From positions 1 to 59,875 of the forward strand of contig OMUY01000041.1 in the NCBI GenBank assembly GCA_900314355.1: a stretch of 59,875 nt of DNA, in the 5' to 3' direction. The notes under the pieces were generated by a model. The model saw only the letters and a list, made by a program, of their open reading frames with translations. It did no database searches and had not been told where the DNA came from. Every line of letters begins with the position of its first letter. Within the stretch, counting starts at the first letter, position 1. Shown here one piece after another: positions 14 to 12,232 of the stretch. This DNA is from an uncultured Eubacteriales bacterium. GTDB taxonomy: Bacteria; Bacillota; Clostridia; Oscillospirales; Acutalibacteraceae. Both the position numbers and the translations under genes were made by a program.

Positions 14-916
14 TTAGAATTTCAGTTTTCTAAACTTTCCCGGGGAAATGCCTTCGTTCTCCGAGAAAAAATAGATAAAATTGGACTCGCTGTTGAAGCC
101 GATGTCATAGGCTATGGAGGCGATAGTCATATCTGTCTGCTGAAGAAGATATTTTGCTCTGTTCAGACGTGAAAGCAGAACGTAGTCGTAAGGAGAAACT
201 CCTGTCTGCTGTTTGAATACTCTTGAAAAATGAGAAGAACTCATGCTTACTATTTCGGCGAGCTTGGAGACCGTAAGGTTTTCATTCAAATTTTCGGAAA
301 TATATTCTTTTACTTCCCGAATATCTTCTTCATAACTGCTTTCGCCTTTTGCTTTGGGACTCAAAGGGTTTAACAGCTCGGCAAACAGTTTATAAATATC
401 AAGCGACATTCCTATTTCCGACGAGGGCTTTTCCTGGCGTATGCAGTCGAACAGACCAAACAGAAGATTTTTCACATGCTGAATATCTTTGCATTTTACA
501 AGATTTCCGCTGTTTCTTTCGATCTCTTCAAACAGGTCAAAAGAATTTCCTCCGCTTATATGCACCCATATCGACTCAAGACTGTTGTCGGTATAGTATT
601 CGTGCGGTTTGTAACAGTCGAGTATTACCGTATCGCCCGTTCGCGCCGTTATTGGGCTGCCGTCTTTTACAAAGGTAAATGTTCCGCTCAGAATGTGCGT
701 GATTAAAAGACTGTCATAATTATCCCTGATAAGATGATAGCCTTTGACGCAGAAAAAATGACCGGCGCTTATAGGATAATAATAAAGCTTTTTCGCCGTT
801 TGTGAAGGCGTGGAAAAATACACTTCGGATTTTTCGAGAACGCCTGTTTCTCTTGATTTCATTGCAACATCATACTTTATGGTAGAATTTCTAAAAAATC
901 CGGCAGATTTTCTCAA
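14..916 (-). CDS. AraC-family transcriptional regulator
   Basis: A cytoplasmic DNA-binding regulator, about 300 residues, the usual AraC length. The N-terminal half is a cupin-like sugar-sensing fold (roughly residues 30-160, with the TGDTVILDCYKPHEY segment). The C-terminal 100 residues carry two helix-turn-helix units, including the family signatures SMSSSHFSRVFKQQTG and IASIAYDIGFNSESNF. It is transcribed away from the sugar-catabolic operon to its right, so it is most likely that operon's effector-responsive regulator; this is inferred from position. The longest frame begins with TTG at 916, without a clear ribosome binding site. An ATG at 862 (residue 19, MKSRETG) is an alternative. A consensus sigma-A promoter lies just upstream. 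The effector is unknown. Confidence 0.93.
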   Translation of the reverse strand: MRKSAGFFRNSTIKYDVAMKSRETGVLEKSEVYFSTPSQTAKKLYYYPISAGHFFCVKGYHLIRDNYDSLLITHILSGTFTFVKDGSPITARTGDTVILDCYKPHEYYTDNSLESIWVHISGGNSFDLFEEIERNSGNLVKCKDIQHVKNLLFGLFDCIRQEKPSSEIGMSLDIYKLFAELLNPLSPKAKGESSYEEDIREVKEYISENLNENLTVSKLAEIVSMSSSHFSRVFKQQTGVSPYDYVLLSRLNRAKYLLQQTDMTIASIAYDIGFNSESNFIYFFSENEGISPGKFRKLKF

Positions 917-933
917 TTTTTTTTCTGATTTTT

Positions 934-962
934 ATTATATAATCAAATTAACAAAATGTCAA
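934..962 (-). promoter_or_regulatory. Sigma-A promoter for the AraC-family gene
   Basis: Reading the minus strand, TTGACA (962-957), a 17-base spacer and TATAAT (939-934) match both consensus hexamers exactly. Transcription would start near 927, a few bases before the TTG at 916 or about 65 bases before the ATG at 862. The plus strand of the same interval holds a TATAAT at 969-974 with no good -35, as expected for an activator-dependent promoter serving the operon to the right. That second assignment is inference. Confidence 0.8.
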
Positions 963-972
963 TTTCCTTATA

Positions 973-1518
973 ATGAGGTATGATATTAAGAAATTTTCAA
1001 AAGTAAAAGTTTGGGAAGATATTGTTGTAATTCCGACATACGAAATCGGCAAACCGGTTTACACCTTATTTATGTTTGACGACGGTCAATATCGAATTAC
1101 CAACGGCGAAATCAGCGACGTCGGTATAAATAAGAACCAAATTAAATGGTATAAATGGGCAGTTGACGGAATAAAAAAAGAGAACGGCGCCATTGTTCCG
1201 AATATGGCGTTCATGCACGTTCCTCTGCCAGAATACAAAGAGCTGGACGGTAATTTTGAGATAGGTATGAGACAGGAAAACAGTTGTACGGCGAGAGAAA
1301 ACGACGGATTTTTTAATGTCTTCAAAGAAAACGGCGGCACGCATGTTTTCTCAGGTCATGACCATAACAATAATTTTGTCGCCGATTATGAGGGAGTCAA
1401 GCTGTGCTATATGACAAAAAGCTCATATAACTGCTATTTCTCATCAAAAACTCTTGGAGGAACAGTCCTGACTCTTGACAAAAACAACAAGATTGGCACA
1501 GACATTAAATCTTTTTAA
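973..1518 (+). pseudogene. 5'-truncated calcineurin-like phosphoesterase remnant
   Basis: This 181-residue frame corresponds to only the C-terminal half of a metallophosphoesterase. It keeps the late metal-binding motifs (AFMHVPLPEY and FSGHDHNNN) but lacks the DxH, GD and GNH(D/E) motifs that build the rest of the di-metal site. The same C-terminal architecture (AFFHIPMKEY, FVGHDHMNN) is present in the complete relative at 11183-12232, so about 170 N-terminal residues are missing. A TATAAT at 969-974 overlaps the only plausible ATG and there is no ribosome binding site, so translation is doubtful. It ends 18 bases before the dehydrogenase gene. Most likely a decaying remnant left by a deletion or by insertion of the regulator gene; a small functional protein is not excluded. 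Confidence 0.65.
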
Positions 1519-1536
1519 TTAATCGGAGGACGATTT

Positions 1537-2742
1537 ATGAAAACATATGCGACCTATTTCCGGAACGATGAAAAAGAGCCGCTTCGCTACGGCGAAATCA
1601 ATTTGATAAATCCGCCGCGTCAAAGGCTAAGAAATGAGGAAAAAAAGACGGGAATCGAAGCAGTTCCCGTATTCTGCGGATTTTGCGGAACGGATTACGA
1701 GCTGATGAAGATGGGAAGAGAGAAAAAACTCACGCCGAAATTTCCCGACGGCGAAAAAAGACTAATAAACGGGCATGAAGGAGTCGTGTGGGTGCCTTCC
1801 GAAAACCGCTTCGCAATAGTTTTGATACGCGGCGGCGACAGCTGTGATCCTACCCGATTTACCGAGGACGAAACATATTTTGAATACGGGTGCGACGGCG
1901 CCGACGGTATTTTCTGCGACAAGGGCTTTTTTAACCCCGATATGCTATTGCACCTGCCGGGTAAATATGACAAACTAAAAAAACTTCCATTGTCGCTCGC
2001 CAAAAAATTGGTATTTTCCGATCCTTACGCTTGCGCGGTATTCCAGTATGAACGCATGTGTGATATAGGCGAGGCGCAGAATTTCCGTGTTGAACTCTCA
2101 AAACGAAAGTGTGATGAAAAAACCGCGAGAAAATATGCCGTAAAAAGGACTTTTGATCGTACGGTAATATTCGGTTTAGGCACGACGGGGCTTTTTATAG
2201 GCGACCAGATACGCTCAAATCAGAAAGACGCAAAAATTCTTTTTGTCGGAAGGAGCGAAGAAAACAGCAAAAAGGCGTTGTTTGTGAAAAATGAGCTTGG
2301 CTGCGACTATCTTTCTTCGGGCGGTATGAACGAAGAAGAAACAGCCGCCGCAATAACAGAAAGAATCGGCGGAACGGCAAGCGTCTTTGTCGGCACAAGC
2401 GGAACGGATGTTGAACACCGCATAGCGTTTGAACAAAAAGTTTTGGGCTGCAACGGAATATACAACAGTTTTTCCTTAGGTCCCAAAGTCACATTTGACA
2501 CCATGCCGTTCGGCTTTAAAAATCAGGTGATTTTGGCGTCAATCAATTTTACGCAAAAGCACATGGAAACGGCTATCGAACTATTGTGCAAAAGCAAGTT
2601 TGACCGACTTGTCGAACTCATTGACAAAGACGAATTTATAAATAATCCAATAGACTTTTACGAAAATAAAATTTATTCCAAAGGCGCGCCGTTAAAAACG
2701 GCGGTCATATGGAACGATAAATACATTGACTCGGAGGCATAA
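1537..2742 (+). CDS. Glucose-dehydrogenase-like MDR sugar 1-dehydrogenase
   Basis: A 401-residue medium-chain dehydrogenase/reductase, similar in layout to archaeal-type glucose/galactose dehydrogenases, which oxidise an aldose at C1 to a lactone with NAD(P)+. Visible features are the catalytic-zinc segment CGFCGTDYELM, the GHEGVVWV element (catalytic His-Glu) and a Rossmann dinucleotide loop IFGLGTTGLFIG. The usual four-cysteine structural-zinc lobe is degenerate: only scattered Cys residues remain in the 110-140 region. A strong GGAGG lies nine bases before the ATG, so the start is secure. It is the first intact gene of the operon and ends two bases before the next. In this context I infer it makes the aldonolactone consumed by the amidohydrolase-type protein at 6435. 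The sugar itself cannot be read from sequence. Confidence 0.8.
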   Translation: MKTYATYFRNDEKEPLRYGEINLINPPRQRLRNEEKKTGIEAVPVFCGFCGTDYELMKMGREKKLTPKFPDGEKRLINGHEGVVWVPSENRFAIVLIRGGDSCDPTRFTEDETYFEYGCDGADGIFCDKGFFNPDMLLHLPGKYDKLKKLPLSLAKKLVFSDPYACAVFQYERMCDIGEAQNFRVELSKRKCDEKTARKYAVKRTFDRTVIFGLGTTGLFIGDQIRSNQKDAKILFVGRSEENSKKALFVKNELGCDYLSSGGMNEEETAAAITERIGGTASVFVGTSGTDVEHRIAFEQKVLGCNGIYNSFSLGPKVTFDTMPFGFKNQVILASINFTQKHMETAIELLCKSKFDRLVELIDKDEFINNPIDFYENKIYSKGAPLKTAVIWNDKYIDSEA

Positions 2743-2744
2743 AA

Positions 2745-3770
2745 TTGAAAGCGGTACAAATTACAAAACCCGGTGAAATAAAAATTATCGAGAAAGACGC
2801 ACCAAAAGCAAAAGACGGTGAAGCGCTTTTAAAAGTGCTTTACTGCGGAATATGCGGCGCAGATGTTGCTTCATATACAGGCAACCAGCCGTTTACCACA
2901 TATCCCAGAATACCGGGACATGAATTTTCGGCGCAGATTTTAGAAATTCCGGATAATGACAAGGGACTGAAAACAGGAGATATTGTAACTTGCAATCCTT
3001 ATTTCAACTGCGGCAAATGCTATGCCTGCAAGCGGGGCATCGTGAACGCCTGCTATGACAATCAGACTATGGGCGTTCAGCGTGACGGCAGTTTTCAGGA
3101 ATATATAACAATGCCGATTGAAAGAATAATTGACGGTAAAGGTTTATCCGCAAAAGAACTTGCTCTTATCGAACCGTTTTCAATCAGCTGCCACGCGCTT
3201 TCAAGAGCCGATATTAAAAAAGGCGATAAAATGCTTATTATGGGATCAGGTCCCATCGGGCTTTTCGCTGTTATGCGCGCCAAAGCTCTCGGCGCAAAAG
3301 TTTTGATTGCAGATATGCTTGAATGCCGTCTTGAGCTTGCCAAGGAATTCGGAGCCGACCGTATTGTAAATGTCAAACAGAATAATTTGCATGAAGAATG
3401 TTTAAAATTTACGGACGGCAACGGATTCGACGTCTGCGTTGAGGCCTGCGGCGCACCCGAGACGTTCCTTTCATGTTTGAATGAAGCGGCGCACGGCGCA
3501 AATGTTATTTTAATCGGCAACGGCAAAAGGGAAACCACTTTCGTCCATTCCATTATTTTGAAAAAAGAGCTGAATATTTTCGGAAGCCGCAATTCTTTTA
3601 CAAAAGATTTTGAAACACTTATAGACCTTGTAAAAAACGGACAAGCGGATATACTTAAAATTGTCAGCGGCGTATATGAAAAGGAAAAAGCAAAAGACGC
3701 TTTTGAAGCTCTTGTCCATAATGACGGCACGCTGGCTAAAATTTTGATAAAATTCGGCGGGGAAATATGA
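2745..3770 (+). CDS. Zinc-dependent MDR alcohol dehydrogenase (aldonate/polyol dehydrogenase)
   Basis: A 341-residue cytoplasmic MDR dehydrogenase of the sorbitol/threonine dehydrogenase group. Catalytic-zinc residues sit in CGICGADVASY and GHEFSAQI. The structural zinc is bound by a complete cysteine cluster in CNPYFNCGKCYACKRG followed by a further Cys. The Rossmann motif is GSGPIGLFAVM. It starts at TTG (2745) preceded by GGAGG at about 2731-2735. The next gene overlaps it by four bases (ATGA), indicating translational coupling. E. coli LgoD, an L-galactonate 5-dehydrogenase yielding D-tagaturonate, belongs to this same family; the adjacent UxaB and UxaA homologues make that the best-fitting role. 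L-iditol or another polyol dehydrogenase is the alternative. Family assignment is firm; substrate is inference. Confidence 0.85.
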   Translation: MKAVQITKPGEIKIIEKDAPKAKDGEALLKVLYCGICGADVASYTGNQPFTTYPRIPGHEFSAQILEIPDNDKGLKTGDIVTCNPYFNCGKCYACKRGIVNACYDNQTMGVQRDGSFQEYITMPIERIIDGKGLSAKELALIEPFSISCHALSRADIKKGDKMLIMGSGPIGLFAVMRAKALGAKVLIADMLECRLELAKEFGADRIVNVKQNNLHEECLKFTDGNGFDVCVEACGAPETFLSCLNEAAHGANVILIGNGKRETTFVHSIILKKELNIFGSRNSFTKDFETLIDLVKNGQADILKIVSGVYEKEKAKDAFEALVHNDGTLAKILIKFGGEI

Positions 3771-5092
3771 AAGAAAAAATTATTCAATTCGGAACAGGCA
3801 ATTTTTTAAGAGGATTTGCCGATTATTTCATCGATTCTCTGAATAAACAAGGATTGTACGACGGCAAAACAGTTATCGTATCGCCAACGGATTCCGAAAA
3901 TGTAAAAAAAATAAACGAACAGAACGGAAAATATCATCTGATTTTAAGAGGAATAGAAAACGGGCGCGAAATATGCGAAATGACCGAAATAAATTCCGTT
4001 TCCCGCGCAGTAAATCCATACCGTGATTTCCGGGCTTTTTTGTCGCTTGCCGAAAATCCCGACATGCGATTTATCATCAGCAATACCACCGAAGCTGGCA
4101 TATGTTTTGACGATTCCTGCTCATTTGACGACAAGCCTGCGTCTTCTTTTCCCGGCAAGCTGACTCAGTTAATGTATAAGCGCTATCAAAAAGGTCTTGA
4201 AGGCTTTGTGATTTTAGCCTGCGAATTAATTGACGATAACGGCAGAAAACTTAAAGATTGCGTTTTGCAATACGCAGAGAAATGGGGACTCGGAGAGAAT
4301 TTCAAAAACTGGATAAAAGAGAAAAACCGCTTTTGCAATACTCTTGTCGACCGCATTGTCACGGGATATCCCAAAGACGAGGCGGAAGAAATATTCAAAA
4401 AATCGGGCTTCCGCGATATGCTTCTTGACACAGCCGAGCCTTATAATCTCTGGGTTATCGAAGGCGATTACGAACAAGAGCTTCCGCTAAAAAAAGGCGG
4501 ATTCAATGTGATTTGGACAGATGACGTTTCACCTTATAAAAAGATGAAAGTCCGCATTCTCAACGGTTCGCATACTTCGCTTGTTTTCCCGTCCCTTCTC
4601 TGCGGCGTGGAAACAGTCGGCGATAGTCTTAAAGACAGTCTGCTCAACGACTATCTTCACGCCTGCCTTTTTGACTGTATTCTGCCGACCTTGGGCGTGA
4701 ATACGGAAAATATGAAGTTCGCTTCTTCGGTGCTTGAACGTTTCGCCAATCCTTACATCAGACACCTTTGGCGGTCTATTTCGCTGAATTCCGTGAGCAA
4801 ATTTACCGTAAGAGTTCTGCCCGCAATAAAAGATTATTATCAGAAAAATGAAAATTTGCCAAAGGTTCTTGTTTTCTCTCTTTCATGTCTGATAAAATAT
4901 TACAAAGATTATGAACCGAATGACAGCAAAGCGGTTGTTGATTATATTAAAACGCACGATACCGGCGAAATTTTAAAAAAGGCCGCTTTATGGGGCGAGG
5001 ATTTGAGTTTTATGACGGAAATTGTAAATGAAAGTCTTGCCGAAATCAATAAGGACGGAATTAGAGAGGCGGTTAAATGGAGTATGTCCTGA
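3767..5092 (+). CDS. uxaB: Tagaturonate reductase / mannitol dehydrogenase family (UxaB-like)
   Basis: A 441-residue member of the polyol-specific long-chain dehydrogenase family. It has the N-terminal nucleotide-binding loop IQFGTGNFLRGF, the ISNTTEAGI segment typical of altronate oxidoreductases, and the C-terminal-domain signature KVRILNGSHTS near the middle. UxaB reduces D-tagaturonate to D-altronate with NADH in the cytoplasm. The ATG overlaps the previous stop (ATGA) and the 3' end overlaps the next gene by 16 bases, so this is the core of a translationally coupled operon. Fructuronate reductase (UxuB) and mannitol dehydrogenase are relatives. The NTTEAGI and NGSHTS motifs plus the adjacent altronate dehydratase favour UxaB. 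Length is slightly short of typical UxaB. Confidence 0.85.
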   Translation: MKEKIIQFGTGNFLRGFADYFIDSLNKQGLYDGKTVIVSPTDSENVKKINEQNGKYHLILRGIENGREICEMTEINSVSRAVNPYRDFRAFLSLAENPDMRFIISNTTEAGICFDDSCSFDDKPASSFPGKLTQLMYKRYQKGLEGFVILACELIDDNGRKLKDCVLQYAEKWGLGENFKNWIKEKNRFCNTLVDRIVTGYPKDEAEEIFKKSGFRDMLLDTAEPYNLWVIEGDYEQELPLKKGGFNVIWTDDVSPYKKMKVRILNGSHTSLVFPSLLCGVETVGDSLKDSLLNDYLHACLFDCILPTLGVNTENMKFASSVLERFANPYIRHLWRSISLNSVSKFTVRVLPAIKDYYQKNENLPKVLVFSLSCLIKYYKDYEPNDSKAVVDYIKTHDTGEILKKAALWGEDLSFMTEIVNESLAEINKDGIREAVKWSMS

Positions 5093-6438
5093 TAAATGAA
5101 AACGACAATGTTAAAGTCAGCCTTTCCGACGGTCATAAATACGCTTACAGGGATATAAAAAAAGGAGAGCCTGTAATAAAATACGGCTTTCCGATCGGAT
5201 TTGCCCTGCGGAATATAAAATCGGGCGAAATGGTTCATACCGATAATCTGAAAACATATCTTTCAGGCGTGAAAAATTACGCGTATAATCCCGAATTTAA
5301 GCCTTTGAAAAAAACTTCTCCGGCAGTTATCAACGCTTTCAAACGAAAAAACGGAAACGTAGGAATAAGAAACGAAATATGGATTGTCTCAACCGTCGGC
5401 TGCGTGAACGGCGTTGCGAAAACGATTGCCGAAAAAACGGGTGCGTTCTGTTTTACGCATCCTTACGGATGCAGCCAGCTTGGCGACGATTTATCAATTA
5501 CCCGAAAAATCCTCTCGGGGCTTATAAAAAATCCCAATGCCGGCGGCGTTTTGGTCATAGGTCTCGGATGCGAAAATAACGGCGTTGAAGAGATGAAAAA
5601 GGTTCTCGGCGACTATGATAAAGAAAGAATCCGCTTTTTAAAATGTCAGGAATGCGGCGATGAAATCAGTGAGGGTGTAAAAATAATATCAGAGCTTGAA
5701 AAAATCACGGCGGAAGACAAGCGCGTTCAGGTTCCGATATCAAATCTCAGGCTCGGACTGAAATGCGGAGGAAGCGACGGACTCTCAGGTATTACGGCAA
5801 ACCCTCTCTGCGGAAAAATCACGGACAGATTGACATCAATGGGCGGCTCGGCCGTTTTGACCGAAGTACCTGAGATGTTCGGCGCAGAAATGATTTTATT
5901 CAGGCGCTGTGTCGATAAATCGGTTTATGAAAAAGCCGTAAATATGATAAATAATTTCAAGCGGTATTTTATCGCCCGGGGTCAGTCTATAAGCGAAAAT
6001 CCTTCTCCCGGAAACAGAGAAGGCGGCATTACAACTCTTGAGGAAAAATCCCTCGGCTGCGTGCAGAAAGGCGGTTCTTCTCCCATAACTGCCGTTCTCG
6101 ATTACGGCGATACGGCGAAAGAGCCCGGTCTCAACCTTCTGAACGGTCCGGGAAACGACATTGTGGCAGCGACAAATCTGACGGCTGCCGGCTGTCAGCT
6201 TATTTTATTTACGACAGGCAGAGGAACGCCGCTCGGATCTGCTGTTCCGACCGTAAAAATCGCTACAAATTCCGCGCTTGCCCGAAAAAAACAAAACTGG
6301 ATAGATTTTGACGCCGAGTCGCAGAACGAAGAGGAGCTTTTTGACCTTCTGATAAAAACGGCGGACGGACAGCAAACTAAAAACGAGAAAAACAACTTCA
6401 GGGAAATTGCAATTTTTAAGGACGGCGTCACATTATGA
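5077..6438 (+). CDS. uxaA: Altronate dehydratase (UxaA-like)
   Basis: A 453-residue altronate/galactarate dehydratase family protein. Residues 1-75 form the small SAF-like domain. The main domain carries conserved Cys-containing motifs, including HPYGCSQLGDD, GLGCENNGVEE, GLKCGGSDGLSGI and TTGRGTPLGSAVPT. The reaction is dehydration of D-altronate to 2-keto-3-deoxy-D-gluconate, usually needing Fe2+ or another divalent metal. It is somewhat shorter than the roughly 495 residues of E. coli UxaA. It overlaps uxaB by 16 bases and the following amidohydrolase gene by four (ATGA), so it sits in one coupled operon. Its product would enter the KDG kinase/aldolase route, but neither enzyme is encoded within this window. 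Confidence 0.9.
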   Translation: MEYVLINENDNVKVSLSDGHKYAYRDIKKGEPVIKYGFPIGFALRNIKSGEMVHTDNLKTYLSGVKNYAYNPEFKPLKKTSPAVINAFKRKNGNVGIRNEIWIVSTVGCVNGVAKTIAEKTGAFCFTHPYGCSQLGDDLSITRKILSGLIKNPNAGGVLVIGLGCENNGVEEMKKVLGDYDKERIRFLKCQECGDEISEGVKIISELEKITAEDKRVQVPISNLRLGLKCGGSDGLSGITANPLCGKITDRLTSMGGSAVLTEVPEMFGAEMILFRRCVDKSVYEKAVNMINNFKRYFIARGQSISENPSPGNREGGITTLEEKSLGCVQKGGSSPITAVLDYGDTAKEPGLNLLNGPGNDIVAATNLTAAGCQLILFTTGRGTPLGSAVPTVKIATNSALARKKQNWIDFDAESQNEEELFDLLIKTADGQQTKNEKNNFREIAIFKDGVTL

Positions 6439-7310
6439 TCATAGACTGCCACGCGCATTTGTGGAAAAATCAACACGGAAAAGTTCAGGGCAGAGATGTT
6501 TTCTCTGTCGGAGGCGGAAAAAGCGATTTCGGCGGTGAAGTTCGTCAAATGATGCCGCCCTATATGGTAAACGGCGAAAATACCGCGGAAATGTTAATCT
6601 CGAATATGGACTATGCGGGAGTCGGCGGCGCTGTCATCACTCAGGAAGAAATTGACGGCAATCAGGACGGGTACCTTTTAACGGTAAAGAAAAAATACCC
6701 CAACAGGCTGAAAATCTGCTCGCTCTATGAAGAAAACAAACCGTTTTCCCTCGACGGCTTCGACGGGGTAAAAATATGCGCCGGCCGATTGCCGACGGAG
6801 GATTTGACGAAGCACTGCAAGGTATTTGAGAAAGCGGACAAAGAACATAAGTTTATATCAATAGAACTCGCGGACGGCGACAGACAAACCGGCTCGCTGT
6901 TGGAGATAATACGGCAGTATCCCGATTTGCGGTTTTCTGTCGGTCATTTCGGAATGGTGACGCGCGTCGGCTGGAAAGAGCAGATAAAGCTTGCGAGAAA
7001 CAAAAACGTCCGTATTGAAAGCGGCGGCATAACATGGCTGTTCAACAGCGAATTTTACCCATATCCGTCGGCTGTCAAAGCGATAAAAGAAGCCGCCGGA
7101 ATATGCGGTTTTGAAAAGCTGATGTGGGGAAGCGACTATCCGCGTACTATGACGGAAATAACGTACAAAATGAGTTTTGATTTTGTATTAAAATCAAAAG
7201 AGCTGACCGAAGCGGAAAAGAAAGCTTTTCTCTTTGAAAATGCGAAAGAATTTTACGGGTTTACTGATTTGACGAAATGCAATAAAATAAAGAATATGCT
7301 GGAGGACTGA
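6435..7310 (+). CDS. Amidohydrolase-2 family protein, possible sugar lactonase
   Basis: A 291-residue TIM-barrel hydrolase of the metal-dependent amidohydrolase superfamily (Amidohydrolase_2). It begins with the metal-binding motif IIDCHAHLW. It also has a mid-barrel histidine in FSVGHFGMV and the C-terminal MWGSDYPRTM motif, whose Asp is the expected catalytic residue. COG3618-type relatives include sugar lactonases, notably L-galactono-lactonase and L-fucono-lactonase, as well as decarboxylases and sulfomuconolactonase. Placed between a sugar 1-dehydrogenase and UxaA/UxaB homologues, a lactonase converting the aldonolactone to the aldonate is the most economical role; this is inference from context. 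The ATG overlaps the stop of uxaA, and the gene ends two bases before the beta-helix gene. Confidence 0.8.
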   Translation: MIIDCHAHLWKNQHGKVQGRDVFSVGGGKSDFGGEVRQMMPPYMVNGENTAEMLISNMDYAGVGGAVITQEEIDGNQDGYLLTVKKKYPNRLKICSLYEENKPFSLDGFDGVKICAGRLPTEDLTKHCKVFEKADKEHKFISIELADGDRQTGSLLEIIRQYPDLRFSVGHFGMVTRVGWKEQIKLARNKNVRIESGGITWLFNSEFYPYPSAVKAIKEAAGICGFEKLMWGSDYPRTMTEITYKMSFDFVLKSKELTEAEKKAFLFENAKEFYGFTDLTKCNKIKNMLED

Positions 7311-7312
7311 AA

Positions 7313-8944
7313 ATGACCACCGTTTACGCCCGTGATTTCGCAATTAAGCCCGATACGGACGTCACCGAAAAGCTTGCCGCGCTTATATCAAGGCTGAAAA
7401 CCACAGAAGGAGAAAAGACTGTAATCTTTGAAAAAGGCGTTTATTACATTGACGGTGAAAAATGCGAAAAGCATATGCTTTATATCACAAATACGGTCGG
7501 CGACAAAGAACTTTCTTCCGACGAAACGCCGCATCTGAACGCCGTTCCGTTTTATTTCGGCGAAATTAACGACATGAACTTTGACGGCGGAGACTCCGTA
7601 TTCGTCATTGACGGAATAGTTACAAACGTCGCGATTGAAAACTGTATAAATATCACGCTGAAAAATCTTGAAATCCGGCACAAGCATCCGGATATGCATG
7701 AACTTAGAGTGATGAGTAAAACTCTTTTCAGCGTTGATTTTGAAATTGACCGAGACAGTCTATTTGAATCAGAAAACGGTAAACTTTGTTTTTACGGCAA
7801 AGACTATCGCGTTTTAGCCGATGAAGGCGCTTTGAAAGCTCATTGGATAGGACTAATCAGAGAAAAAACGCCAAATAAAATCATTCGTACTTCGCATCCT
7901 CTTATTTGCGCCTTAAAGTCGCGTGACCTCGGCAGCAGAAAAATCTGCGTATATTATCCTAATACTTTTCGATTTAAAACGGGCGACCGCTTTTATCTTT
8001 TTGACGTCCGCCGCCAATTTGCCGGAATTTTTATTAACAAAAGCAAAAACGTAACGCTTGAAAACATAAAACAGAGATTTAATTATTCTCTCGCCCTTGC
8101 GGCGCAGGATACCGAAAATATCACGGTTGAAAATATAAGCTTTTCGCCCGAAAAGGATTCCGCGAGAAAAATGGCGTCTGTCGCCGATTTCATACAGCTC
8201 TGTATGTGCCGTGGAAAGATTGTTATTAAAGACAGTTATTTTGAGGGCTCCGGCGACGATCTTCTGAATGTTCACGGAATACATTTTAAAATCACTGACA
8301 TTGAAGGAAAAAATATAACCGTTCGTTTCATGCATCCGCAGACTCACGGCTTTAATCCGTTAAGATCGGGCGATACGATAGCCTACATCAATCCGGAAAC
8401 GCTTCTGGAGGAGGGCTCGGCGGAAATTGAAAAATCGGAGTTATTGAATGAATACGAGATCAGACTGTCGGTAAGCAGTACGAAAAACGCGGTTGTCGGC
8501 AAAGTTATTGAAGATATAACCGCCTGTCCCGATCTTGAATTTACGGGCAGCATCTCTTCAAAAATAATCACAAGAGGACTTCTTATTACCACAAGAGGAA
8601 AAGTAAACGTTGAAGGCAACCGCTTTTTGAGCTCGTCTATGAGCGGCGTCCTTCTTTCGGATGACGCAAAAAGCTGGTATGAAAGCGGTATGTGCCAAGA
8701 TGTCGCGATTAAAAATAACATATTCGATTACTGCGGCAAAACGCCTATTCTCATCAAACCGGAAAACAGCCGTTATGATGGCGCTGTTCATAAGAACGTC
8801 AAAATTTGCGGCAACACATTCAGAAATTACCGCGGCGCCTGTATTAAAATAAAAAATTCCGATAATATCATTATCCGGGACAATAAATTCGACCGCTCAA
8901 AATCAATCAGGATGAAAAACTGCAATAATATAATCAGAGAGTAA
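7313..8944 (+). CDS. GH110-like right-handed beta-helix glycosidase
   Basis: A 543-residue protein built of short parallel beta-helix rungs, recognisable by recurring N-I/V-T-x-E-N-I patterns (for example VTLENIKQRF and ITVENISF). It resembles GH110 exo-alpha-1,3-galactosidases. Residues 312-318 contain GSGDDLLNVHG with adjacent Asp315-Asp316. Downstream segments RGLLITTRGKVNVEGN and LLSDDAKSWYESG are also typical of that family. No signal peptide is visible, so it probably acts inside the cell on imported oligosaccharides or glycosides. It lies two bases after the amidohydrolase gene, in the same operon. GH110 enzymes remove terminal alpha-galactose from blood-group-B or linear Gal-alpha-1,3-Gal structures. 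The specificity here is unproven and another exo-glycosidase activity is possible. Confidence 0.72.
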   Translation: MTTVYARDFAIKPDTDVTEKLAALISRLKTTEGEKTVIFEKGVYYIDGEKCEKHMLYITNTVGDKELSSDETPHLNAVPFYFGEINDMNFDGGDSVFVIDGIVTNVAIENCINITLKNLEIRHKHPDMHELRVMSKTLFSVDFEIDRDSLFESENGKLCFYGKDYRVLADEGALKAHWIGLIREKTPNKIIRTSHPLICALKSRDLGSRKICVYYPNTFRFKTGDRFYLFDVRRQFAGIFINKSKNVTLENIKQRFNYSLALAAQDTENITVENISFSPEKDSARKMASVADFIQLCMCRGKIVIKDSYFEGSGDDLLNVHGIHFKITDIEGKNITVRFMHPQTHGFNPLRSGDTIAYINPETLLEEGSAEIEKSELLNEYEIRLSVSSTKNAVVGKVIEDITACPDLEFTGSISSKIITRGLLITTRGKVNVEGNRFLSSSMSGVLLSDDAKSWYESGMCQDVAIKNNIFDYCGKTPILIKPENSRYDGAVHKNVKICGNTFRNYRGACIKIKNSDNIIIRDNKFDRSKSIRMKNCNNIIRE

Positions 8945-8997
8945 ACAACCACAGAAAAACATACGCGGAATTTTCAGCAAAAACATCAGGGAGAAAA

Positions 8998-10911
8998 ATG
9001 GAATACAGAAATTTACAACTTTCATACAGCTCTGTGACAGGAGATTACGAAATCAAATACAACGGCTTTTCGTGGATAAGCGACGGCAGGCGTCCTTATA
9101 TTATTATACGAAAAAAGGTAGGCGGCAAATATATCCGCACTTTCCGGCTGCTTTCGAGCGCGCTTGACAAAAAGGTCGAAAAAAGCGATAACCGCATTGT
9201 GTGCCGATATAAAAACTACATCGCGTTCGGGAAAAAACTGCCCTTTTCGCTTATTTGCACTGCTGAAATTACGGGAGAAAATACGGTTGAATTTTCTGTC
9301 AAGGCAGAAAACGAAACGGGCTATGATATTCAGGCGGTGTATTTTCCTGCTCCGTTCAATTCAAAAGCGAAAGGGAAGAAATCTTACCATGTTGACTCGA
9401 TGCGTCAGGGCTTTTTAATGCCGGACGGATACAGGGAGAATTTTTTGTCAACTTTCGGATTTGCGCATTATCTGCGAAAAATAAACACGGGCGACTGTTA
9501 TATGCCTGTTTGGGGCAGAGTGTGCGACGGTCATACTTTTACGGCTGTTGTCGAAACGCCTTTTGACGCATGTATGTTCTCATCATTCGGACGTCATAAA
9601 GCTTTCGTCAATTCCGTTCATTGGATGTCCTCTCTCGGCAAACTTTCTTACGAAAGAAAAATCAAATTTATTTTTCATGAAAAAAGCGACTATAACACTG
9701 TGGCGAAAGATTACCGCGCGTATCTTAAAGAAACCGGACAGTTCGTTTCAATAGATGATAAAATAGAGAAAAACAAAAACATTGAAAAGCTTATCGGCTG
9801 CCCGGTTCTGCATCATAAAATTTATTCAAAAATCAACGAAAAGTCAAAATTTTACGATGAGAACGGCACGAATGAAATTTTGTACGCCACATTTTACGAG
9901 CGTGCCGAACAAATGAAACATTTGAAAGAAATGGGGCTCCAAAAACTGTATATCCACACCGACGGCTGGGGAAAGGACGGTTACGACAACAACCACCCAT
10001 ATATTCTTCCTCCCTGCGAAGCGGCAGGCGGATATGAGGGCTTAAAAGAGTTTTCAAAAGTAAGCCGTGATCTCGGCTACATCTTTGCTCTTCACGACCA
10101 GTACCGCGATTACTATTACTCATCGCCTGTTTTCGATATGGATAAGGCTGTTGAAAATATTGACGGCTCTCACCCCTATTGCTCGATATGGGACGGCGGC
10201 GAGCACACATTTCTCTGTTCTTCTCAGGCGCTTGAATTTGTCAAGAAAACTTATTCTGAGCTTGAAGAACACGGCGTTGACGTACAGGGAGCATACCTTG
10301 ACGTCTTTTCTGTTATGAACGGGGATGAATGTTTTAATCCGAAACACAAAATTACAAGGGAGCAAAGCATCCGGTATCGTGCCGAATGTTTTGATTATCT
10401 GAACGACAAAGGATTTATTATGTCTTCGGAAGAGCCGGCGATGCAGCTAATCAATCATATTGCGCTTGTCCATCACGGGCCTTTTACTTTAAGACCGCAG
10501 GAAAACGGACAGGCGGTAGGTATTCCCGTACCTCTCGGCAATCTCGTGTTTCACGACTGTGTTATGGTTCCGTGGAATTGGTTTAATAACTGGGGAATTC
10601 CAAAAGGCGACAACGGCGACTTATACTGCGCCCTGCTTGCCGGTATGCCTTATATCAGCCCGTTCGGCACTGCAGTCAGAAAAATCGGAACAGACAGCCG
10701 CACGGCTGATACTGAACTAATGGACGATGAAAACCTTAAAAAAGAGATTAACCGCGTCATGCCGCTTGCCGCTCTGCAGGCGAAACTTTACAACAAAGAA
10801 ATGGTAAAACACGAGTTCCTGGGAAATGTCCGCCGCCAGAGGGCGACCTATTCGGACGGCACAACGGTTACCGTTGATTTTGACAAAAACACCTATGAAA
10901 TCTTAGAATGA
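8998..10911 (+). CDS. Putative GH129/GH101-like glycoside hydrolase
   Basis: A 637-residue protein with an N-terminal beta-rich domain (about 1-240) and a C-terminal TIM-barrel-like region. The arrangement and length recall GH129 alpha-N-acetylgalactosaminidases and the related GH101 enzymes. Candidate active-site elements are YIHTDGWGKDGYDN (about 320), the strand-end GAYLDVFSVM with Asp435 as a candidate nucleophile, and IMSSEEPAMQ with a candidate acid/base glutamate. There is no signal peptide, so it is likely intracellular. It follows the GH110-like gene after 53 bases with GGGAG just before the ATG and is the last gene of the operon. An uncharacterised family related to GH101/129 is equally possible. 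The fold assignment comes from recalled motif resemblance, so confidence is moderate. Confidence 0.55.
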   Translation: MEYRNLQLSYSSVTGDYEIKYNGFSWISDGRRPYIIIRKKVGGKYIRTFRLLSSALDKKVEKSDNRIVCRYKNYIAFGKKLPFSLICTAEITGENTVEFSVKAENETGYDIQAVYFPAPFNSKAKGKKSYHVDSMRQGFLMPDGYRENFLSTFGFAHYLRKINTGDCYMPVWGRVCDGHTFTAVVETPFDACMFSSFGRHKAFVNSVHWMSSLGKLSYERKIKFIFHEKSDYNTVAKDYRAYLKETGQFVSIDDKIEKNKNIEKLIGCPVLHHKIYSKINEKSKFYDENGTNEILYATFYERAEQMKHLKEMGLQKLYIHTDGWGKDGYDNNHPYILPPCEAAGGYEGLKEFSKVSRDLGYIFALHDQYRDYYYSSPVFDMDKAVENIDGSHPYCSIWDGGEHTFLCSSQALEFVKKTYSELEEHGVDVQGAYLDVFSVMNGDECFNPKHKITREQSIRYRAECFDYLNDKGFIMSSEEPAMQLINHIALVHHGPFTLRPQENGQAVGIPVPLGNLVFHDCVMVPWNWFNNWGIPKGDNGDLYCALLAGMPYISPFGTAVRKIGTDSRTADTELMDDENLKKEINRVMPLAALQAKLYNKEMVKHEFLGNVRRQRATYSDGTTVTVDFDKNTYEILE

Positions 10912-11182
10912 TTATGCCTGACCTTGAAAAAATAACGATTATTGATTTTTCAAGCTGAAAAATCCCGCCGGTATTTTACAGTCGGGAGGAACAAAATTCG
11001 CAACAGATGATTTTGAATGTTTTTTTTCGATTACGGCGGGCGTGAAACATCATATCGCCGTACGCGGCAAAACGGCATTTTCCGGGAAGTTCAGAGCGGC
11101 AAGCCCGTAACAATTACCTATAAGCATATACACCATGAATTGAAAACCTATTAATACACATATAATGAGGAAAATATTTAAT
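10912..11182 (+). other. Intergenic region with inverted repeat and possible gene remnant
   Basis: Just after the glycosidase gene there is a perfect 9-base inverted repeat, CTTGAAAAA (10923-10931) and TTTTTCAAG (10946-10954), without a T tract. A 45-codon frame at 11017-11154 starts with ATG, is rich in Arg/Gly/Lys codons and has no ribosome binding site at proper distance. It may be the tail of a decayed gene but I cannot identify it. A TATAAT at 11161-11166, with a TTGAAA 15 bases upstream, may be a weak promoter for the phosphoesterase that follows. Confidence 0.3.
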
Positions 11183-12232
11183 ATGAAAAAAGGGATGAAA
11201 ATATTTTTAAGTGTATTGCTTGTTTTTGCAATAATAGGAGCGGCTGCCTCTTTGACCGCAACATTTTACGGCAAGAAATATGTCAGAGCCGAAGATACGG
11301 CGTTCTCCGTTTTGCAGATAACCGATGTTCATCTTCTTAACGATGAAAAAAAGGACGCAAAGGCATTTAAAACAATAACCGCTATGGTTGAAACAACAAA
11401 GCCGGATATGATAGTCGTAACCGGTGACGTCACAAGCGAAAAGGAAAATTATACGGCTTTCAAAACTTTCTGCGGTTTTATGGAAAAATTCCGTATTCCA
11501 TGGGCGTTTACATTCGTCAATCACGAGGGACTTGATATAAAATATTCGCCGGATGAGGTTTTAGACCCCAAAAAGACTGCGGATAAAAAAACGCTCAGTG
11601 ATTATCTTGAATCGCTTAAATACTGTATTTATGAACGTGGCGACGAAAATGTTGACGGAATGGGCAATTATTATTACACAGTCCGTGATGATAACGGCAA
11701 AGCCCTGACCTCTTTGATTTTTATGGATTCAAACAGTTATGATGAAAAAAACAACGGCTATGATCATTTTCACGATAATCAAATACAGTGGTATAAAAAC
11801 ACAATTAAAAAAATAGCAAAACAGGAAAACGGAGATGAAAGCAGAGTTTTGCCGTCACTCGCGTTTTTTCATATTCCCATGAAGGAATATATGACAGCTT
11901 ATGACGAAGCGAAGGGTACGAAAAACCTGATTTACGGATTTCGTTTTCCGAATGAGGACGGTACTCCAGCGGTTGACGACGATATGTTTGAAACTATGCT
12001 TGAGCTCGGCTCTACAAAGGGTTGTTTCGTCGGTCATGACCACATGAACAACTATTCGGTAATTTACAAAGGCATAAGACTTACCTACGGTATTTCGTGC
12101 GACCATAATATTTATTTTGTTCCGTTCAGAGGCGGCACTCTTATAAATATAAAATATGACGGTTCATTTACGACTCAGCCGCTTATAAGGCACAGAGGAC
12201 AAAATACCGTCACCGTTTGCGAGGAATACTGA
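11183..12232 (+). CDS. Membrane-anchored calcineurin-like phosphoesterase
   Basis: A secreted or membrane-anchored metallophosphoesterase of about 349 residues, DCR2/purple-acid-phosphatase-like. Lys-rich residues precede an N-terminal hydrophobic segment (IFLSVLLVFAIIGAAA) that acts as signal peptide or anchor. The di-metal motifs appear in order: VLQITDVHLL, VVTGDVTSEK, FVNHEG (Val in place of the usual Gly of GNH), FFHIPMKEY and FVGHDHMNN. It presumably hydrolyses phosphate esters outside the membrane; the substrate is unknown. I chose ATG 11183 because GAGG (11167-11170) precedes it. An in-frame ATG at 11165 would add six residues but lacks a ribosome binding site. It is a complete relative of the truncated copy at 973-1518 and is followed by a terminator. 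Confidence 0.85.
   Translation: MKKGMKIFLSVLLVFAIIGAAASLTATFYGKKYVRAEDTAFSVLQITDVHLLNDEKKDAKAFKTITAMVETTKPDMIVVTGDVTSEKENYTAFKTFCGFMEKFRIPWAFTFVNHEGLDIKYSPDEVLDPKKTADKKTLSDYLESLKYCIYERGDENVDGMGNYYYTVRDDNGKALTSLIFMDSNSYDEKNNGYDHFHDNQIQWYKNTIKKIAKQENGDESRVLPSLAFFHIPMKEYMTAYDEAKGTKNLIYGFRFPNEDGTPAVDDDMFETMLELGSTKGCFVGHDHMNNYSVIYKGIRLTYGISCDHNIYFVPFRGGTLINIKYDGSFTTQPLIRHRGQNTVTVCEEY

Follow-up and report, generated by a model that had tools for sequence, protein, structure and literature searches.

A conserved dehydrogenase-lactonase trio predicted to carry L-galactose into the tagaturonate-altronate trunk in gut Clostridia

Which sugar is degraded by a tightly packed run of genes at the start of contig C19 of an uncultured Eubacteriales bacterium? 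We analyzed this contig over its whole length of 59,875 bases (the window); it belongs to genome G000, which comprises 2.23 Mb in 106 contigs and is 86% complete. An earlier note on the window (the original prediction) had claimed that five adjacent genes at 1537-7310 encode a sugar 1-dehydrogenase (MDR1), a zinc-dependent medium-chain dehydrogenase/reductase (MDR2), a tagaturonate reductase (UxaB), an altronate dehydratase (UxaA) and an amidohydrolase that could be a lactonase (LAC). All five open reading frames were found at the same positions and on the same strand, and their family assignments agreed with Pfam and NCBIfam matches, weakly so for MDR1 (Table 1). The note had also named L-galactose as the best-fitting substrate and had ordered the steps from aldose to 2-keto-3-deoxy-D-gluconate (KDG). 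Both claims were supported by fold matches, by the identity of UxaB and UxaA and by the genome-level coupling to UxaA. On the grounds of stereochemistry and co-occurrence, we consider L-galactose the likely main substrate.

The MDR1-MDR2-LAC trio and its link to UxaB and UxaA

Genome contigs of a species-level collection were scanned with the MDR1 alignment. Of the 301 encoded relatives found, the top 80 were retained; six further loci, taken from related genomes, brought the total to 86, of which 83 are distinct (L009/L048, L011/L062 and L013/L091 are the same places). Layout was assigned by tblastn as long when uxaB-uxaA lay between MDR2 and the lactonase gene, and as short when it did not. 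The order MDR1-MDR2-lactonase was kept in 74 of the 86 loci (71 of 83 distinct), i.e., in 42 loci of the long layout (40 distinct) and 32 of the short layout (31 distinct). This recurrence across homologous loci indicates that the five-gene arrangement is not due to chance. In 31 distinct loci the three genes remain grouped with no uxaBA inserted between MDR2 and LAC; the trio therefore forms a unit independent of uxaBA. The position of uxaBA itself varies: inside the trio (40 distinct loci), downstream (L069), upstream (L033 and L053), divergent (L030 and G470) or elsewhere. The other 12 loci comprised seven without the lactonase gene, of which all except L056 stop near a contig edge, three with MDR1 alone (L093 at a contig edge; L040 and L049 not at an edge) and two with a single uxa gene between MDR2 and the lactonase gene (uxaA in L076, uxaB in L082). 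Record titles of the relatives name Clostridia, Oscillospiraceae, Ruminococcaceae, Eubacterium and similar groups; nearly all are metagenome-assembled genomes, and many name a ruminant host.

Co-occurrence was assessed in 63 genomes (61 distinct, two pairs being the same genome): 13 related genomes and those of 50 of the 80 loci, a selection that takes in most short-layout loci and a number of long-layout ones. The short-layout genome set (n = 31) consisted of 27 loci together with G006, G070, G160 and G186. L053 and L035 were assigned to the short group despite having uxaBA on the contig that carries the trio; G384, whose locus ends soon after MDR2, was placed outside the set, and the genomes of L033 and L069 (short, with uxaBA in the locus) fell outside the search. 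The comparison set comprised 385 trio-negative genomes, i.e., an order sample of 394 less nine trio-positive genomes. UxaA was detected in 61/63 trio genomes (59/61 distinct), in a single copy each. Among the short-layout genomes, it was encoded elsewhere in 29/31, compared with 89/385 trio-negative genomes (98/394 less the nine trio-positive ones; Fisher p = 2.4e-15, uncorrected for phylogeny or completeness). At the seven outside sites that were fetched, uxaB lay beside uxaA in all, accompanied by uxaC in two (L111 and L112). This co-occurrence indicates that genomes with the trio also tend to have the tagaturonate-altronate trunk, which is retained elsewhere when it is outside the operon. 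Judged from co-occurrence rather than flux, the trio probably feeds D-tagaturonate into UxaB and UxaA. UxaC was present in 61/61 trio genomes versus 212/385 trio-negative genomes, and KDPG (2-keto-3-deoxy-6-phosphogluconate) aldolase in 57/61 trio genomes.

In the window, UxaB and UxaA appear canonical by score and identity. UxaB passed the NCBIfam tagaturonate reductase model well above its cut-off of 359 and shares 39.6% identity with E. coli UxaB versus 26.5% with E. coli UxuB; UxaA is 52% identical to its E. coli namesake. The galactarate dehydratase GarD was rejected as a candidate, with 224.7 bits on TIGR03248 against a cut-off of 730.85. The operon uxaA was the only PF04295 gene found in G000. 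The original prediction had argued against galacturonate use from a missing uxaC. The gene is indeed absent from the neighborhood, none being found among the ten genes scanned at 14-12232, although the genome has a sole UxaC match on contig C87, where its neighbors encode an L-rhamnose isomerase and a carbohydrate kinase. With UxaC in every trio genome, G000 included, the argument fails, which leaves the reading of the trio untouched. Because UxaC is encoded in the same genome and the operon UxaA is the only one found, the operon UxaB and UxaA probably also serve D-galacturonate. The kdgA and uxaC genes that the note would have sought to the left of the window, where no sequence is readable, were both found on other contigs. 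Contig C75 carries the KDPG aldolase gene next to a uxuA relative, and a GH95 gene (L106:11144-13414) lies divergent from these two.

The proposed route and the points that weigh against it

L-galactonate and D-altronate differ at C5 only, and L-galactose alone among the common hexoses reaches D-altronate by C5 inversion only. L-galactose fits because oxidation at C5 followed by reduction by UxaB inverts exactly this carbon. D-galactose was rejected as the substrate on stereochemical grounds: D-galactonate could become D-altronate only if C2, C3 and C4 were all inverted, and it is thereby excluded.

We propose that the operon would serve the cytoplasmic breakdown of imported oligosaccharides and the catabolism of their L-galactose. 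The GH110 and GH129-like enzymes (joined by GH29/GH95 in relatives) would trim side chains. MDR1 would then oxidize L-galactose to L-galactono-1,5-lactone, LAC would open the lactone to L-galactonate, and MDR2 would oxidize L-galactonate at C5 to D-tagaturonate. UxaB would reduce D-tagaturonate to D-altronate and UxaA would dehydrate it to KDG, which a kinase and then the KDPG aldolase from the other contig would convert to pyruvate and glyceraldehyde 3-phosphate. UxaB and UxaA would be shared with D-galacturonate, entering via UxaC. L-galactose occurs in rhamnogalacturonan II and some xyloglucans. It is also carried by corn glucuronoarabinoxylan, from which a Bacteroides ovatus GH95 enzyme releases it, and α-D-galactose is mentioned in complex xylans (both from part of PMC4491172). 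The glycosidases that neighbor the trio in relatives would fit side chains of plant origin or of host type.

The individual enzymes were assigned with different strengths. MDR1 matched only Glu_dehyd_C in Pfam, at 24 bits and below the cut-off of 34.9, and had no NCBIfam match at E 0.01 and no PDB sequence match at E 0.001. An AlphaFold (AF2) model of MDR1 was built from 63 rows, with a predicted local distance difference test score (pLDDT) of 87.5. The ten PDB chains closest to it in fold all belong to glucose dehydrogenases, at 16-18% identity, and C50, T52, D53, H80 and E81 were invariant in 63/63 rows. Fold and context thus point to an aldose dehydrogenase. Among eight E. coli MDR proteins, LgoD was closest to MDR2 (34%, 189 bits), followed by RspB (32%, 176 bits); C37/H59/E60 and C89/C92/C95/C103 were invariant in 12 rows with LgoD, and MDR2 is predicted to be an L-galactonate 5-dehydrogenase. 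The AF2 model of LAC (pLDDT 93.1) ranked 4i6k first, an entry labelled probable 2-pyrone-4,6-dicarboxylate hydrolase and the sole PDB sequence match of LAC (E 1.9e-5); 4dlf and 4do7, both labelled COG3618, ranked second and fourth. Residues H6, H8, W10, H171 and D234 were invariant in 55/55 rows. We infer from fold and context that LAC is a sugar lactonase.

Several observations weigh against L-galactose and the step order proposed for it. The sugar of MDR1 is not fixed by its fold, because the identity to the best fold matches is so low. The top fold match of LAC is an enzyme for the lactone of a dicarboxylate rather than of a sugar. In a tree of MDR2 with the eight E. coli dehydrogenases, the backbone was unresolved, and MDR2 did not fall clearly in the LgoD clade. 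L040 and L049 carry MDR1 without MDR2 or the lactonase gene in the fetched stretch; therefore, MDR1 can stand without them. L056:4569-8640 has MDR1-MDR2 followed by GH110 and no lactonase gene in the fetched stretch, with uxaA on another contig. The genomes of L039 and L057, both short, had neither a detected UxaA nor a detected KDPG aldolase, and the Fisher test carries the lack of correction given with it. Finally, the GH110, GH129-like, GH35 and GH101-like neighbors are enzymes of mucin and blood-group glycans. Such glycans contain L-fucose and, in mammals, are not known to contain L-galactose.

The two stand-alone MDR1 genes lie in L040:9989-12512 and L049:686-1879; a GH39 gene overlaps the end of MDR1 in L040, and another lies between MDR1 and MDR2 in L033.

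L-fucose and other rival substrates

With a fairly low probability, the locus might instead encode an oxidative route for L-fucose, or for both L-fucose and L-galactose, that would be new to science and would belong to gut Clostridia that trim mucin glycans. In such a route, L-fuconate would be epimerized at C5 via 5-keto-L-fuconate and 6-deoxy-D-altronate by UxaB/UxaA-type enzymes, in many genomes alongside the isomerase route.

L-fucose is 6-deoxy-L-galactose, of the same configuration without the 6-hydroxyl, and is the common sugar with that configuration. If it were the main substrate, MDR1 would form L-fucono-1,5-lactone, LAC would open it, MDR2 would yield 5-keto-L-fuconate, and UxaB and UxaA would convert the corresponding 6-deoxy compounds, so that the final products would be pyruvate and D-lactaldehyde. 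L-fucose is a serious rival because of the neighboring glycosidases: GH110 and the GH129-like enzyme, together with GH29, GH95, GH35 and GH101-like proteins in relatives, resemble a mucin/blood-group toolkit. The fold matches of LAC include a COG3618 protein of B. multivorans, which we take to be a fuconolactonase; however, LAC scored only 17.4 bits on the NCBIfam L-fucono-1,5-lactonase model (NF052480), far below the cut-off of 400. An oxidative route would also suit the five of nine order-sample trio genomes without an L-fucose isomerase match (G319, G160, G186, G353 and G384), whereas the isomerase was detected in 51/61 trio genomes, G000 included (48 above the cut-off), and in 13 of the 15 genomes whose locus holds GH110 or GH129. 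The canonical scores of UxaB and UxaA and the uxaC gene beside uxaBA at L111 and L112 speak against L-fucose, as does the fact that a 6-deoxy KDG cannot take the C6 phosphate required by KDPG aldolase. Weighing both sides, we regard L-fucose as an unlikely main substrate.

Mutual exclusion of the trio and L-fucose isomerase was considered and rejected, given the 51/61 trio genomes with the isomerase; in the order sample, only 4/9 trio genomes have it. The wider PF02952 model matched in 214/394 genomes of the order; it is a different model, and no enrichment is claimed. The G000 isomerase gene (L104:8517-10319) lies beside GT87-like, cupin and purple-acid-phosphatase-like genes, with no obvious fuc operon.

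Loose specificity of MDR1, LAC and MDR2, which would admit both L-galactose and L-fucose, appears quite unlikely. Chromohalobacter and Halomonas have a TRAP transporter with dual L-fuconate/L-galactonate specificity and mixed L-fucose/L-fuconate/L-galactonate loci (from part of PMC5507952), but the Luteolibacter enzyme LguA is inactive with L-fucose (from part of PMC12632266), and the 6-deoxy product would require a separate aldolase for the last steps. A plain D-galacturonate operon, with the dehydrogenases and amidohydrolase merely adjacent and unrelated, is very improbable: G000 does encode UxaC and has its only detected uxaA in the operon, but no uxaC lies in the cluster, the pathway requires none of MDR1, LAC and MDR2, and these occur together in the short-layout loci regardless of uxaBA.

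The locus, its neighbors and related pathways

The features of the locus are listed in Table 1. The five genes are spaced by 2, -4, -16 and -4 bases, which suggests translational coupling. The run extends to 10911, with the GH110 gene 2 bases after the lactonase gene and the GH129-like gene 53 bases later; hence, the single coupled operon of the original prediction stands in its spacing and falls short in its extent, the two glycosidase genes having been overlooked.

Table 1. Predicted genes at the start of the window
Feature	Position	Strand	Evidence
AraC-family regulator, divergent from operon, start codon uncertain	14..916	-	HTH_18 83.9 bits, AraC_binding 31.8 bits
Calcineurin-like phosphoesterase fragment, 181 aa	973..1518	+	Clusters with 345-364 aa phosphoesterases
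MDR1, predicted aldose (L-galactose) 1-dehydrogenase	1537..2742	+	Glucose-dehydrogenase-like predicted fold
MDR2, zinc dehydrogenase, predicted L-galactonate 5-dehydrogenase, TTG start	2745..3770	+	ADH_N/ADH_zinc_N
UxaB, tagaturonate reductase	3767..5092	+	Mannitol_dh; NF002969 532.2 bits
UxaA, D-altronate dehydratase	5077..6438	+	GD_AH_second/GD_AH_C, GD_AH_C 314.7 bits
LAC, amidohydrolase, predicted sugar lactonase	6435..7310	+	Amidohydro_2 91.5 bits
GH110 α-galactosidase relative	7313..8944	+	GLAA-B beta-barrel 46.7 bits; PDB 8yk3 E 9.1e-57
GH129-like, α-N-acetylgalactosaminidase relative	8998..10911	+	PDB 5wzn E 9.6e-101; DUF5696 82.8 bits
Calcineurin-like phosphoesterase, 355 aa, operon membership uncertain	11165..12232	+	Metallophos 39.3 bits; 253-base gap before

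The GH110 protein is related to solved GH110 structures (8yk3, and 7jw4 at E 2.5e-37) and keeps the DD aligned with chain positions 344-345 of 7jw4, where Asp-344 is the likely general acid. The GH129-like protein aligns with NagBb (5wzn) and keeps the residues aligned with D435 and E478, which we take to be catalytic. Neither protein showed a signal peptide on inspection by eye. AraC genes of the same cluster as the divergent regulator were found in 15 loci, the window counted. The phosphoesterase fragment, which had no Pfam match by itself, looks decayed; its counterparts before MDR1 in relatives are about 350 aa long. Its cluster, which includes the second copy at 11165-12232, is present in 18 distinct loci, the window counted, and comes after glycosidase or DUF5107 genes in L016, L019, L035 and L082.

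Neighbors were counted at any position and on both strands of the fetched stretches of 84 distinct loci, the window being one of them; for the labels, one to three members of each cluster were scanned with Pfam. GH110 occurred in 11 loci and GH129-like genes in 10 (both counts with the window), GH29 and GH95 in 10 each, GH35 and GH101-like genes in seven each, MFS_2 transporters in six and GH2 in five. In relatives, genes of GH95 and GH29 lie next to the core. Two forms of DUF5107 protein, one with a long TPR region and about 1070 aa in length, recur beside glycosidases in eight and six loci (L035:9324-11264, L046:5694-8915). An FGGY-family carbohydrate kinase gene lies downstream of the lactonase gene in L038:13131-14507 (scanned) and L053:15089-16477 (same cluster), and in L053 the gene that separates uxaBA from the trio (L053:7923-9071) encodes an aldo-keto reductase that has an iron-sulphur domain. 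No KDG kinase or aldolase was found among ten Pfam-scanned near-core genes of L012, L018, L028, L038, L053, L064, L080 and L086, most neighbors having been left unscanned.

A Thr in GH95 was tried as a discriminator between L-galactosidase and L-fucosidase. The GH95 motif was seen in 9/10 cluster members of the loci, of which 8/9 have Thr at the BACOVA_03438 Thr370 position and one has His; the GH95 protein of contig C75 also has Thr. The discriminator was dropped because XacAfc95 has Thr at this site yet is a fucosidase, and its T395H substitution left the preference unchanged (from part of PMC8245568).

The pathway itself has already been described in Bacteroides vulgatus and Luteolibacter sp. 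LG18. Bvu0219, Bvu0220 and Bvu0222 of Bacteroides (Phocaeicola) vulgatus reportedly form an L-galactose pathway of dehydrogenase, lactonase and L-galactonate dehydrogenase leading to D-tagaturonate (Hobbs 2014), i.e., the same order of steps as proposed here. Bvu0219 is said to be an aldo-keto reductase, in contrast to the glucose-dehydrogenase-like MDR1. We take the family of BVU_0219, LguA and plant L-galactose dehydrogenase to be aldo-keto reductases, whereas MDR1 is an MDR protein with invariant catalytic C50, H80 and E81. The divergent regulator is alike in the Luteolibacter lgu cluster, being annotated there as Btr, presumably an AraC-family name.

In the part of PMC12632266 available to us, BVU_0219 and BVU_0222 are cited as L-galactose dehydrogenase and L-galactonate dehydrogenase, respectively, and lguRABCDEF is described as a dual L-glucose/L-galactose pathway, tested by enzyme assays and knockouts. 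As proposed for our locus, genes for D-tagaturonate reductase, D-altronate dehydratase and L-gluconate/L-galactonate dehydrogenase are clustered there and follow the same route to KDG. Unlike our locus, the first enzyme is the NADP-dependent LguA, which clusters with BVU_0219 and the Arabidopsis L-galactose dehydrogenase, and the cluster contains its KDPG aldolase and, in that part of the paper, no glycosidase; the word lactonase is absent from the text of PMC12632266. These likenesses are by description, the LguA/LguD and Bvu0219/0220/0222 sequences lying outside the comparison. The proposed route feeds UxaB and UxaA as these pathways do, judging from uxaBA in the operon and from co-occurrence.

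The E. coli L-galactonate pathway shares UxaA and UxaB, and its LgoD resembles MDR2, at the identities given above, whereas its lgo locus consists of lgoT, lgoR and lgoD, with no adjacent aldose dehydrogenase or lactonase gene. Halomonas and Chromohalobacter loci combine lgoD with uxaA and uxaB (or uxaF), there beside fucose genes; they differ in their TRAP transporters and L-fuconate route, and glycosidases go unmentioned in the available part of PMC5507952.

We found no description of the trio in the available portions of the open-licence literature on L-galactose and L-galactonate catabolism, Clostridia and Firmicutes included, and for this reason we regard it as a variant of the known L-galactose pathway. 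Three features are new: the use of an MDR with a glucose-dehydrogenase-like fold as the first enzyme, the presence of glycosidase genes around it, and the wide occurrence in gut Clostridia. If the proposed route is true, widespread and largely uncultured gut Clostridia could use L-galactose, given the 301 encoded MDR1 relatives in one collection, and they would do so starting with an enzyme that has no relation to the L-galactose dehydrogenases described so far. MDR1 marks out an uncharacterized dehydrogenase family, with enzymes open to simple assay.

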